Part shown: positions 59,130 through 64,000 of the stretch, in pieces
How positions within the stretch are numbered: position 1 is the stretch's first letter
Layout: each line of letters begins with the position of its first letter
NCBI GenBank assembly: GCA_017525905.1
Contig: JAFXSD010000076.1
Coordinates: 1 to 64,000 of the forward strand
Source: Elusimicrobiota bacterium
GTDB lineage: Bacteria > Elusimicrobiota > Endomicrobiia > Endomicrobiales > Endomicrobiaceae
Length of the DNA stretch: 64,000 bases
Direction of reading: 5' to 3'
Notes under the pieces: generated by a model
What the model saw: the letters and a program-made list of their open reading frames with translations, nothing else
Database searches by the model: none
Told to the model about the DNA's origin: nothing
Made by a program: the position numbers and the translations under genes

Positions 59130-59136
59130 AGTTTAT

Positions 59137-59210
59137 GCCCTGATAGCTCAACTGGATAGAGCAGATCCGTCCTAAGGATAAGGTTGGAGGTTCAACTCCT
59201 CTTCAGGGCG
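59137..59210 (+). tRNA. tRNA-Arg(CCU)
   Basis: The 74-base gene folds with acceptor GCCCTGA/TCAGGGC, D arm GCTC/GAGC and T arm GGAGG-TTCAACT-CCTCT. The anticodon loop GTCCTAA gives CCU (codon AGG). The anticodon stem has a G27-A43 mismatch at its base. CCA is not encoded. It borders a phage-like gene, and tRNA 3' ends are common integration sites. Confidence 0.93.
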
Positions 59211-62200
59211 TTTTCTATATGGCAAAACCCAAAACCAAAAACACCGTCCAAAAACTAAAAATACTATGATTTTACAATATATTTTTAACCCGTACCAACC
59301 GTTCTCAACCTTTACGAACCGCCAAAGAATTTACCCAAATTTTACCCAAATCACAACTATATTATTTTAATTACATTATTATATTGTTCTACTTCTTTAA
59401 TTATTCTAAGTTCTATTTTCTGTATTTCTTTCTTAATTCTCTCTTGCTCATCTAAACTTAAATCATTCTTGTTTTCATTAAGCACTTTAGCACGTTTATT
59501 ATGTTCTTGTAAAATCTTAGAAATTTTATCTGTATAAGGCTTTGACATTCTCAAATAAGTCAACTCTTTCGAAGATAACTCAAAGCCTTGTTTTTTAGCC
59601 GAATATAACTCATCCGTCCATTTTTTGTTATCATAAAAATCTTGAATCAATCTGCCGGAGGCAAAATAAGAAAGATTTCTAAAAGTATTTATCGACGCGT
59701 CAAAATTGTCTTTTTTATTCATATCCGAAGAATACAAAACTCTTTCGGCACCTCTAATAAACATTTTTCCCATCTGTCCAAAAGTTTGATCCAAAGCATA
59801 ATCTATTCTCATGGGAGACACACCCAACTTTCCGCCTATATATTTAGCGGTTTCAGAAGTTCTGTTATTAAATCTATACTTATTAGGTAATCTTCTAATA
59901 GCCATAGGTTCTATATCTTGCAAATCCGGGAAAATTCTTTTACCTGCAACAAGTCCAAACACAGGAACAGCCGGCTGAGGAAGCCACGAAATAAATTGTC
60001 TCGAAGCACCATCAAACCCGTCTTCAGCAACCTTTGCAGCCGTAACAGCAAAGTTAAACTGATCAGGCACAACATCGGTCAAAACCTGCACCATATCCGA
60101 AAGTTTATATTTTGCATTATATTTAGCGTTTGCATAAAGCATAGCACCAAACACTCCTAAACTTGCAAAAACATTATCTACCGGAATTCTTATAAAATCA
60201 TCTTCCTTGCCTGTAGAAACATACAAATATCTCGTCAACATTTCCGGCATAATTTGCAAAAATTGCATTCTATTATACTCATCATCCGTATTATCTAATT
60301 TTCTGCGTGCAAGTTCGAAAGCTGCTAACGAAATTAATCCCAACGTAAACAAAAATTTCTTTAAAGTTTTAGGATTAGAAATACTTCTTAGATATATTTT
60401 CCCAACCTGCAACGTCGCATTTAAAAATGAATTTACTTTAATACCGCTTTTTAACAATACACTGTTAAACCACCTACCAAAATCACCAAAGGCTCCGGTA
60501 ATTTCTTCAGCAGCTCTACTGGCAGTTTTCATATCCGCCCCGGCGATTCTCATTCTAACATACTCTGCTCTTCTTGCCAAACTCTCACTAAAAGAAGACG
60601 GTGCCCCTAACACTTTTTCAACCGCTCCTAAAAATTTTTGTCCGTTACTTTCCCCTAAAGCTTTTCCCATTTCTAACGGACTAACAATATCCAAATTTCC
60701 CAACATAGTATTAGTATCACCACCAAACAAATTATCATACTCTCTTACATAAGGTTTAGCTTGTTTATTTGTAAGAATCTGTAAACTACTTATTATAGGT
60801 ATATATCCTGTTTTACTACTAACAAAAGCGGTAGCCTGATCTCTCAAGAAATTGGCAGCAGCAAACTTCCAACTTAATCCGGTAGTCAACTTTGTAAACA
60901 ACCTATTACTTGTTAAAGCCATTTTTAATAACCCATCACTAAGCCCCATATCAAACAACTCTTTAACAGTATTATAAATATTTATATCTTTAATTTTTAC
61001 AGCCACTTTTTTGTTTTTTATTCTTCCAACAAACACATCATTTGCATGTTCCATTCCATTACTATACGGAACCACTTGCATAAATTCATGCAAATGCGGT
61101 GCCATTTGCACCAATTTATTTATAACTATATATTTGTAAGCTTCTCTATAAGCCGAAGCCATAAACCTTACGGAAGACACTACAGGGCTTATAATAGCCA
61201 ATTCGCTTCCTTTGATTCTTTTTAAATTCTTTAACGGCTGGCTAACACCTTTATATTTAACAACAGTGTTTCCGGCAAGCTTTGTAACAGAACTAAAAAA
61301 GTTATTTTTATCGTCAGCATAAATCTCATCATACACATTTCTGCTAAACGGAGCATACCCGTAATTATCCAAAAACTCTTTAAAAACTTCATCCGTTATC
61401 ACTCCGGAATTATGCAATGTTTCAAGAGTTGCATTATGCAACTTATCATAAATTTCTGCCAAATTTTGGTTTATATCAGTATCTAACTCTTTAAAAGCGG
61501 TTTCTATATCTTGCCTGTTCCTGCCATTATTTTTTAGTATTGTATCAATTTTGTCGTATTCTTCTTTTACATTAGCATACAAAGCAATATAATCTTTCCA
61601 CTCATCAAACTTAGCTTTATTATTCTTATCAGCTTCAAATTCCTTTCTCGCTTGTTCAACTTTTAGTTTTAACCTACTCAATGTAACTTCATAATCGTCA
61701 AGTTTTCTATACCAACTTACAAACCGTCTTGTAACCAAATACTCATCAAAATTACTATTAGTTTTTACAACTTTCTTTAAAAAAGTCCGCCAATTGTCCC
61801 CAATATTTACTTCTTGTGCATTTCCGTCTTTATCTAAAATATAAAACATGCCGTCTTCATTATGCAAGTTCGCCCCGATAACACTACCCAAAATTTTTCT
61901 ATATCCCTTAGCGGTTAAATATAAATCATTATCCATCCATTTTAAAATCGCGTCGCTATCAAATATTGTTCTATCCAAAAACACCCAAAACGGAATTTCG
62001 TTTTTATTTTTCACTATCAACGGCTTATCATACAAAGTAGCAGAAACTTTTTCTATTGCCGTCATACCCTCATAATCCACAATAATCTGCCTTGCCGAAA
62101 CATACAAATCTTGCAACGGTGGATATTTCTGCATAACATAAGTAAACGCTTCATAAAAATTCTTTTTTACAAAAGTAGGATCAACAATTGCCATCTGTAT

Positions 62201-64000
62201 CATTGTTGCAATACCTTCAGCAGCTTGAGTCTCTACAGGTTTTCTTGCTATACTCTTAAGCCCATAATGTTTTATGGCACACTCACGCAATTGTCTTAAA
62301 ATCTCTTTTTGTTGTTTATCATTTTTTGAATTTGCAATAATATTTCTTATTATATCTTGTCTATCATCCAAAGCATGCACAACTTCATGAGTAACCGTAT
62401 CTATGTTTAACAAACTATTTACAAACACATTACCCTTTTTAGATCCGTAATCATAATACACACCTGTAGCATTTCTCGGTTTATAATTACTTTCACTTAT
62501 ACTAACTCCAAACTTTTCAGCAAGATCGTAAGTTCTCTGATATACTTTTTCTTTATTTCCGGAAACATTTTCATCCGGCTCAATTGCAAACTTTACACCA
62601 TGCGTCTCTACGGAAGCTAAATTATTTCCTTTAGTATTACTTTTTATTTTCGGTTTATTTTTATTTTTCAAAATCTTGTTGACAATTTTAATATAATCGG
62701 CTACAATATCATCGGATGGTAATGTTGCACTCAGGGTTGTCCTGATGTTTGCCGCATTACCGTCCTTTTTTTGTATCTCTATTTCGGAAATATTTGTAGA
62801 GTGTAAAGTTCTTTCACCTATACTTCCTTTAGGTTTCTTTTTACCTGCATATTGTTCGGTAACGGTAAATCTTACAAAGTATTCATCGTAACCGCCTTTA
62901 TCGTTTTGTATTTTAAATTTGTTTAAAGTGTTATGCCAAAAAGCAATATTTGTATGTTTTTTATGTTGTTTGTTTCCGGTATACTGTTTTTCTGTTGGGC
63001 TGTCTATTAAAACAGAGTTTTTATAAAGTTCCGGCAACAATCTTACAACTGTAGATGTATCAAAGCCTTTATGCCTTAATATTTTATCTACCGTTTCAAC
63101 AGAAAAATTTGTAGCTCCAAGCTCGTTATGTTCAACGGTTTTGTTGTTTCTAAAAACTTGTTCTGCGTCTTTTTTTATTAAACTCTCATGCGGTTGTATT
63201 TCAATGGTATCTTTATCTAAAAATTTAACAAATCTTTTAGCTATCTCTTTTTCTTCATCAGTTACAACATAATTATCAGAAACATCCACTAATACATTAT
63301 TCGGACTAAAAGAATTTATATGATTTCCCGAACTAATAAATTGTAACAAACCGTTTTGTTTTTCTTTTCCAATATATATACCATAAGCCGAATTATTAAT
63401 TTTATAAATATTACCCTTTACAAGCTCAAAATTATCACCGGTTACATTGTTTGGAAAATTTTTTATTATTTCCTCAACAGGTTTCCTAACTACATTTTCT
63501 AACCTTTCTCTAAGAATATCTTCTTTAACAGATCCCACTTGTTTCGTTATGTTTTCCAAAGTATCATTATAGTTTATATAATTAACACTGTTTTCGTTAC
63601 CTGTTTCAATTGCGTCATTTTCCAAATTATTGACACTCTTGCCATTTTGTCCTATAATATTCGTGCCGGTATTGTTACTCGGGACGATAGAAGATTGAAG
63701 TATTCTTCTAAAAATGTCAGGGTTAATACCGGTTTGTCTTTTGTATAAAGTTTTTGTTGTTAAAGTTTTTTTACCGGTTCTTACTTCTTCCATATAAACA
63801 GATGAGCCGTCAGGCATGTTTTTAGCATAAGCTATAATATCCAAACCTTTATCGTTTTTTAACCCGAATGCTATATAATCATAGTTTTTGGTTATATAAT
63901 TAGGCAAAGTTTTTATATCTTCATCGGTAATAGCAATTTGTCCTCTACTCTTTTCGGTTTTGACATTTCCATGATTCTTAAATATATGTCTTATTGCAGA
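59211..64000. mobile_element. Left end of a putative integrated phage-like element
   Basis: Immediately after the tRNA-Arg 3' end the gene content changes to one giant phage-type polyvalent protein that continues out of the window. The 146-base gap (59211-59356) has no gene. It carries a tandem TTTACCCAAATTTTACCCAA at 59331-59350, which could belong to an attachment region. No integrase is in view; it would be expected beyond 64000. This is inference from position and the single protein. Confidence 0.5.
59357..64000 (-). CDS. Giant phage polyvalent protein: PBECR-like nuclease, metallopeptidase and LPD38-like domains (5' end outside window)
   Basis: The frame has no start in the window: it is open to position 64000, adding at least 31 residues before the TTG at 63905-63907, including HIFKNHGN and SRGQIAITDEDI. 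This N-terminal part, with VYMEEVRTGKKTLTTKTLYK, resembles phage Barnase-EndoU-ColicinE5/D-RelE-like (PBECR) nuclease domains. About 280-390 residues from 63907, HKKHTNIAFWHNTLNKF and EYFVRFTVTEQYAG look like an LPD3-type domain. HEVVHALDD (about 505-513) with a later EGIATMIQ suggests a zinc metallopeptidase. The C-terminal half, from GLSWKFAAANFLRDQATAFV on, matches LPD38 and has a hydrophobic helix (FLFTLGLISLAAFELARR). Such proteins are thought to be injected with phage DNA. Codon use looks as AT-rich as its neighbours. Confidence 0.8.
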   Translation of the reverse strand, partial: SAIRHIFKNHGNVKTEKSRGQIAITDEDIKTLPNYITKNYDYIAFGLKNDKGLDIIAYAKNMPDGSSVYMEEVRTGKKTLTTKTLYKRQTGINPDIFRRILQSSIVPSNNTGTNIIGQNGKSVNNLENDAIETGNENSVNYINYNDTLENITKQVGSVKEDILRERLENVVRKPVEEIIKNFPNNVTGDNFELVKGNIYKINNSAYGIYIGKEKQNGLLQFISSGNHINSFSPNNVLVDVSDNYVVTDEEKEIAKRFVKFLDKDTIEIQPHESLIKKDAEQVFRNNKTVEHNELGATNFSVETVDKILRHKGFDTSTVVRLLPELYKNSVLIDSPTEKQYTGNKQHKKHTNIAFWHNTLNKFKIQNDKGGYDEYFVRFTVTEQYAGKKKPKGSIGERTLHSTNISEIEIQKKDGNAANIRTTLSATLPSDDIVADYIKIVNKILKNKNKPKIKSNTKGNNLASVETHGVKFAIEPDENVSGNKEKVYQRTYDLAEKFGVSISESNYKPRNATGVYYDYGSKKGNVFVNSLLNIDTVTHEVVHALDDRQDIIRNIIANSKNDKQQKEILRQLRECAIKHYGLKSIARKPVETQAAEGIATMIQMAIVDPTFVKKNFYEAFTYVMQKYPPLQDLYVSARQIIVDYEGMTAIEKVSATLYDKPLIVKNKNEIPFWVFLDRTIFDSDAILKWMDNDLYLTAKGYRKILGSVIGANLHNEDGMFYILDKDGNAQEVNIGDNWRTFLKKVVKTNSNFDEYLVTRRFVSWYRKLDDYEVTLSRLKLKVEQARKEFEADKNNKAKFDEWKDYIALYANVKEEYDKIDTILKNNGRNRQDIETAFKELDTDINQNLAEIYDKLHNATLETLHNSGVITDEVFKEFLDNYGYAPFSRNVYDEIYADDKNNFFSSVTKLAGNTVVKYKGVSQPLKNLKRIKGSELAIISPVVSSVRFMASAYREAYKYIVINKLVQMAPHLHEFMQVVPYSNGMEHANDVFVGRIKNKKVAVKIKDINIYNTVKELFDMGLSDGLLKMALTSNRLFTKLTTGLSWKFAAANFLRDQATAFVSSKTGYIPIISSLQILTNKQAKPYVREYDNLFGGDTNTMLGNLDIVSPLEMGKALGESNGQKFLGAVEKVLGAPSSFSESLARRAEYVRMRIAGADMKTASRAAEEITGAFGDFGRWFNSVLLKSGIKVNSFLNATLQVGKIYLRSISNPKTLKKFLFTLGLISLAAFELARRKLDNTDDEYNRMQFLQIMPEMLTRYLYVSTGKEDDFIRIPVDNVFASLGVFGAMLYANAKYNAKYKLSDMVQVLTDVVPDQFNFAVTAAKVAEDGFDGASRQFISWLPQPAVPVFGLVAGKRIFPDLQDIEPMAIRRLPNKYRFNNRTSETAKYIGGKLGVSPMRIDYALDQTFGQMGKMFIRGAERVLYSSDMNKKDNFDASINTFRNLSYFASGRLIQDFYDNKKWTDELYSAKKQGFELSSKELTYLRMSKPYTDKISKILQEHNKRAKVLNENKNDLSLDEQERIKKEIQKIELRIIKEVEQYNNVIKII

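Follow-up and report, generated by a model that had tools for sequence, protein, structure and literature searches.

Phage polyvalent proteins are widespread and, to our knowledge, almost uncharacterised. In the survey of Iyer et al. 2017 (PMC5512222), PBECR domains were proposed to act as RNases on host or defence RNA, with active members defined by a helix His and a strand Thr, an Asp three residues past HExxH was described as a feature of one phage-type MPTase group, and large polyvalent proteins were found to be mosaic across a family in Helicobacter jhp1044. Among ejection proteins, the giant virion RNA polymerase (vRNAP) of N4 is itself ejected, and DEV gp73, gp72 and gp71 are proposed equivalents of T7 gp14, gp15 and gp16 (PMC10925440). 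N4 vRNAP is ordered as cargo, HExxH domain (residues 2124-2375) and a large helical domain of unknown fold (PMC12633501), and in SU10 the proteins gp20-24, whose genes follow that of the nozzle, exit the head upon genome release (PMC9509320). The giant protein described here is a phage polyvalent protein of the kind already described by Iyer et al., with at least two unrelated domains in one polypeptide encoded among prophage virion genes. We consider it likely to serve a temperate short-tailed phage as its terminal and largest ejection protein, with exchangeable cargo, a PBECR3 RNase and a self-cutting zincin.

In the 64-kb window, the whole stretch of DNA that was analysed, the minus strand at 59357-64000 is an open frame of 1,547 codons. 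This is the 3' part of a putative ejection protein gene of 1,986 codons, which is complete in the 146,292-bp assembly contig (G000:C127), where it encodes 1,986 aa with 0 internal stops and starts beyond the window at an ATG at 65317, preceded by AAGAGG as ribosome-binding site. The initial annotation had predicted from the window that the frame would run past 64000 into a protein of more than 1540 residues and that 63907 would be an artificial start, and the extended contig bore out both points. Chance is excluded for the giant ORF and for its two Pfam domains, PBECR3 and LPD38; no family for the giant as such was found in PHROGs or NCBIfam. At its N-terminus, aa 1-41 (contig 65195-65317) form a triple repeat of about 14 aa each, DLSGLxLEKEDKN, which is kept in the sister giants of L072, L076, L079 and L097 despite divergence elsewhere and is a possible docking or packaging signal.

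The gene lies in a prophage of 35.0 kb (59198-94188) that looks intact, since a 13-bp att core, CCTCTTCAGGGCG, is present both in the 3' end of tRNA-Arg(CCT), the integration site (59136..59211, plus strand), and just past the integrase, forming a direct repeat at 59198..59210 and contig 94176-94188. A candidate integrase arm site, AATTTACCCAAAT, at 59328..59340 is repeated at contig 94148-94160, and a motif resembling it adjoins the integrase in the sister phages. The structural operon encodes a major head protein (contig 77588-78775), the terminase large subunit (contig 73764-75260), an SU10-type portal (contig 71654-73750), an SU10-type adaptor (contig 71002-71640) and a 988-aa protein matching phrog_511 'internal virion protein', followed by proteins of 192, 113, 166 and 310 aa. 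The giant is the final, co-oriented gene, 10 nt from the 310-aa gene. Beyond the operon lie replication genes (phage O-like, DnaB, SSB), a repressor-like helix-turn-helix protein, the integrase and an M15-like peptidase with a sub-threshold match. An origin in a non-phage core locus, a doubt raised by the initial annotation, is ruled out, as the gene sits right behind the structural genes within a prophage bounded by the att repeat.

The giant gene also adjoins the tRNA end of the prophage. Prophage tRNA ends often house accessory genes, as might be expected if the giant were a superinfection-exclusion or defence protein made in the lysogen and not part of the virion. We regard this as very improbable, given that the gene is co-oriented with the structural operon and separated from its 310-aa gene by 10 nt, that synteny is kept in uncultivated sister phages, and that homologues in isolated phages are encoded within the tail/ejection gene cluster. 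In other phages, too, tRNA genes are found within about 0.5 kb of the giant gene (L079:11789-11864, Glu; L022:14354-14509, Glu and Lys), which suggests that this gene is a frequent marker of the att end of a prophage. A tRNA gene is also present inside the prophage (contig 83620-83697; L003:4620-4697, minus strand; Rfam tRNA 51 bits). ARAGORN calls it tRNA-Pro(CGG), a doubtful assignment, and its anticodon loop is unusual. As the sister loci are partial as well, we did not adopt the idea of a phage-borne antidote to a tRNA-cutting PBECR3.

The first enzymatic module is a predicted RNase domain, PBECR3, at aa 421-528 (63734..64000, minus strand, on to contig 64057). It crosses the window edge, and in the full protein it matches Pfam PF18812 with 73.0 bits against a curated cut-off of 30 (E 2.3e-20). 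In an alignment of six PBECR3 sequences, His444 (63986-63988) and His449 (63971-63973) are invariant; Thr523 (63749-63751) was placed by the alignment and by the position of a Thr-containing motif. The helix His and strand Thr of active members are thus retained, in line with the PBECR-like nuclease that the initial annotation had predicted. In the AlphaFold model, this region has helices followed by strands, a BECR-like order, at a mean pLDDT of 34, and PDB sequence searches with PBECR3 gave no matches. Relatives of the domain in G022 and G118 are preceded by an RWGCQCG motif, which we take to be reminiscent of MuF-like head proteins. The RWGCQCG-PBECR3 arrangement stands in two genomes of the phylum other than ours (L020:1498-2445 and L017:1504-2040), and such proteins are possibly another head-packaged delivery form.

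The second, putative enzymatic module, at aa 924-1130 (61928..62548, minus strand), contains HEVVH at aa 977-981 (62375-62389), followed by Asp984 (62366-62368) and Glu1034 (62216-62218). An HExxH motif by itself could arise by chance, which is countered by the finding that His977, Glu978, His981, Asp984 and Glu1034 are invariant in the giant and four relatives that are 26-44% identical over the domain. As in the MPTase group of Iyer et al., the Asp stands three residues after HExxH. The domain is therefore probably a zincin, as predicted from these residues, in agreement with the metallopeptidase first proposed. In profile searches, Pfam M4 was matched below threshold in sister L070 (E 0.0019), and thermolysins were the sole PDB profile matches, weak at E 0.08-0.14. 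When the domain was aligned by hhalign to the 1,377-residue C1-C2 part of N4 vRNAP, the single match fell on the N4 HExxH (C1) domain (101 columns, E 0.003, probability 10%), compared with E 0.11 over 15-33 columns for two control targets. We read this likeness as suggestive, not as proof.

Both modules could still be catalytically dead, serving in structure or RNA binding, with the giant only a component of a DNA-ejection channel. The PBECR domain of Mu MuF was described as inactive (PMC5512222), and at mean pLDDT values of 40 and 34 the AlphaFold models leave the zincin and BECR folds unconfirmed. Set against this are the retention of His444, His449 and Thr523, the HExxH, Asp and Glu kept in all five aligned sequences, and the gain or loss of the whole PBECR3 cassette between sister phages (below), which would be unexpected for a structural part. 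Dead modules are, in our judgement, quite unlikely.

Between the two modules lies a segment at aa 684-898 (62624..63268, minus strand) that is LPD3-like by homology and below the membership threshold for LPD3 itself. The giant's own copy gave no match to Pfam LPD3 (PF18798). A relative's module that is 59% identical to it scored 25.3 bits against the cut-off of 27 (E 1.8e-5), and one that is 35% identical scored above the cut-off (35.7 bits, E 1.1e-8). The LPD3-like domain of the initial annotation is thus upheld through these relatives and lacks a direct Pfam match in its own copy. The module recurs across the giants of further short-tailed phages from this host family, at identities of 59% (G016), 50% (G021), 46% (G022) and 35% (G015). 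These giants also have ART-PolyVal, LPD22 or MuF-C domains, and the neighbours of those in G016 and G022 include a phrog_376 tail protein that is absent from our phage. In a relative, a further open frame of 935 aa, cut at its contig end (L028:3-2810), joins a sigma-70 region 4 helix-turn-helix to LPD3, ART-PolyVal and the same HExxH domain. Among 50,697 records of sequenced phages, tblastn gave no match to the LPD3 module, HExxH domain or 166-aa protein, so that these parts lack cultured relatives.

A DNA pattern for HExVHAxDD identified sister phages among uncultivated viral contigs, in which back-translated peptides from the giant and its domains had found no relatives. These are L070, cut at its contig end, L072 and L076, with identical giants of 2,149 aa, and L079 and L097, with giants of 2,153 aa. 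They are 91% identical to our phage in the portal and 88% in the adaptor; identities are 67-81% for the 310-aa gene (35% in L070), 74-81% for the 166-aa gene, 65-68% for the 113-aa gene, 54-55% for the 192-aa gene, 49-51% for the 988-aa gene and 48-49% for the integrase. Judged by these values, they are of the same phage lineage as ours. One of the source contigs, IMG/VR 3300028832_000128 (75.6 kb; L072, L097, L110, L112 and L114), has three copies of the 166-aa ejection gene, spaced 37 kb apart, and giants of two types with 80% identity, an arrangement suggestive of related prophages in tandem.

The sister giants are 29-38% identical to ours at the N-terminus, 54-69% in a conserved spacer at aa 580-683 (63269..63580, minus strand) and 29-41% from aa 924 onward. 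On either side of the spacer, the giants differ in content. The first slot holds the PBECR3 cassette (aa ~352-579; 63581..64000, minus strand, on to contig 64264), which by empty-site comparison is absent from the sisters: L076 reads ...NIVKVNSDVNIKYNDTLENITKQ..., where our giant has ~228 residues with PBECR3 between ...NIVKANRDINVETEQ and INYNDTLENITKQ. The second slot holds ~240 residues here, including the LPD3 module, which is replaced in the sisters by ~560 residues with a VDDIFTMGAN motif in L076 and by ~166 residues in L070 that are related to the first part of the L076 insert. The L076 motif weakly recalls phosphoribosyltransferases, which made up several of the top PDB matches at E 0.1-0.9, values that are not significant. 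The giant gene is not merely fast-evolving, because the whole giants of L076 and L079 are 81% identical and their neighbouring genes 59-89%; compared with these two, our giant is an outlier, as expected if it had recombined. Comparison with the sister phages at the sequence level therefore provides clear evidence that enzyme parts are exchanged at two fixed positions.

That the zincin-like domain is conserved while the surrounding cargo changes would also fit an effector that, once injected, cleaves a protein of the host, with the giant not self-processed and the nuclease acting while tethered. Consistent with such a role, N4 vRNAP is packaged unprocessed despite its HExxH domain (PMC5512222). 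We consider an effector role for the zincin unlikely, as the domain keeps the same position relative to varying cargo, in N4 as well as here, and a processing or structural role fits this better. The peptidase may well process the giant itself rather than attack the host.

From aa 1131 to the C-terminus the giant is mostly helical, and the part at aa 1239-1984 (59366..61603, minus strand) is homologous to the ejection-position proteins of Page, HTVC204P and phiARM81mr. The LPD38-like domain of the initial annotation was confirmed by a direct Pfam match (PF18857; aa 1696-1861; 59735..60232, minus strand) at 47.8 bits against a curated cut-off of 27 (E 2.4e-12). Directly before it, aa 1652-1670 (60308..60364, minus strand) are the most hydrophobic stretch of the giant and a candidate membrane-inserting helix; among the LPD38 homologues listed, all but the cut L070 have an equivalent stretch that exceeds the threshold. 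Since in HTVC204P the homologue is encoded behind the genes of tail tube B and internal virion protein, in ejection position, and that of Bacillus phage Page is located in the late gene block, we infer that the helical C-terminal part acts as a chassis.

As we infer its packaging, ejection, membrane role, RNase and protease activities and target, the giant would be packaged into the head and would leave it before the DNA, together with the two small proteins encoded upstream (166 and 310 aa). Its N-terminal and helical, LPD38-containing C-terminal parts would together serve as the chassis for delivery, docking on the inner membrane and on the remaining ejection proteins, and the PBECR3 RNase and the LPD3 module would be exchangeable cargo between these parts. 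PBECR3 would act in the first minutes, right upon entry, by cleaving host or defence RNA. The zincin domain would most likely cut the giant and release the cargo, or alternatively act on a host protein. Injection with the phage DNA to disable host functions, as the initial annotation had proposed, is suggested by the gene position and by the precedents of N4 vRNAP and SU10 gp20-24.

Of the known systems, the LPD38 giants of Bacillus phage Page, Pelagibacter phages HTVC034P and HTVC204P and Aeromonas phage phiARM81mr share a homologous C-terminal region with ours (~19-23% identity over the aligned part) and, as in our phage, an ejection or structural gene position. Pfam LPD38 was matched in Page, HTVC204P and phiARM81mr (E 1e-27 to 1e-51), and PBECR3 and LPD3 were not found by Pfam in the scanned parts of the four giants; the phiARM81mr giant, unlike ours, has ddrB-ParB and a methyltransferase. 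SU10, a Kuravirus, has related portal and adaptor families and a giant, gp24, that likewise closes the ejection gene block; no sequence similarity between gp24 and our giant was detected by HMM or hhalign.

With N4 vRNAP (gp50) and DEV gp71 of the Schitoviridae our giant shares its place as a terminal giant after small and medium ejection genes, the N4 order of 16.5 kDa, 66 kDa and vRNAP paralleling our 166 aa, 310 aa and giant. As in N4 vRNAP, which enters the cell, its HExxH domain precedes a large C-terminal domain that is mostly helical. Unlike N4 vRNAP, it is without an RNA polymerase and has PBECR3 and LPD3 in its place, and hhalign found no homology to N4 outside the HExxH domain, C2 included. 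We therefore describe it as resembling the terminal ejection proteins of the N4 vRNAP/T7 gp16 type in architecture and gene order, and do not class it as one. These parallels suggest that the block of HExxH and helical domains in N4 vRNAP belongs to a wider delivery architecture. More tentatively, terminal giants of diverse short-tailed phages could share a generic chassis (N-terminal docking, HExxH and helical C-terminal parts) with defined slots, in which phages of one host family swap PBECR RNase, LPD3, phosphoribosyltransferase-like and ART modules, and N4 would carry the best-known cargo, its virion RNA polymerase; we hold this to be possible and short of probable.

Like the phage-type polyvalent proteins of Iyer et al. 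(PMC5512222), the giant is large, multidomain and encoded in a virion-gene context, with PBECR, LPD3, LPD38 and zincin-like MPTase modules, and the LPD3/PBECR3 mosaicism across the host family matches their description of Helicobacter jhp1044. Its domain order and combination were seen in none of the relatives fetched. Here, unlike in their set, sister phages allow a direct reading of cassette gain, loss and exchange: what appears to be new is the empty PBECR3 site in the sisters, the other sequence in the LPD3 slot and the recurrence of the LPD3 module in other phages' giants. Pairs of filled and empty sites with conserved neighbours make a single injected nuclease cassette testable across otherwise similar delivery proteins. 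What this locus adds to the known polyvalent proteins is cassette gain and exchange at defined slots among sister phages, together with the parallel to N4 vRNAP.
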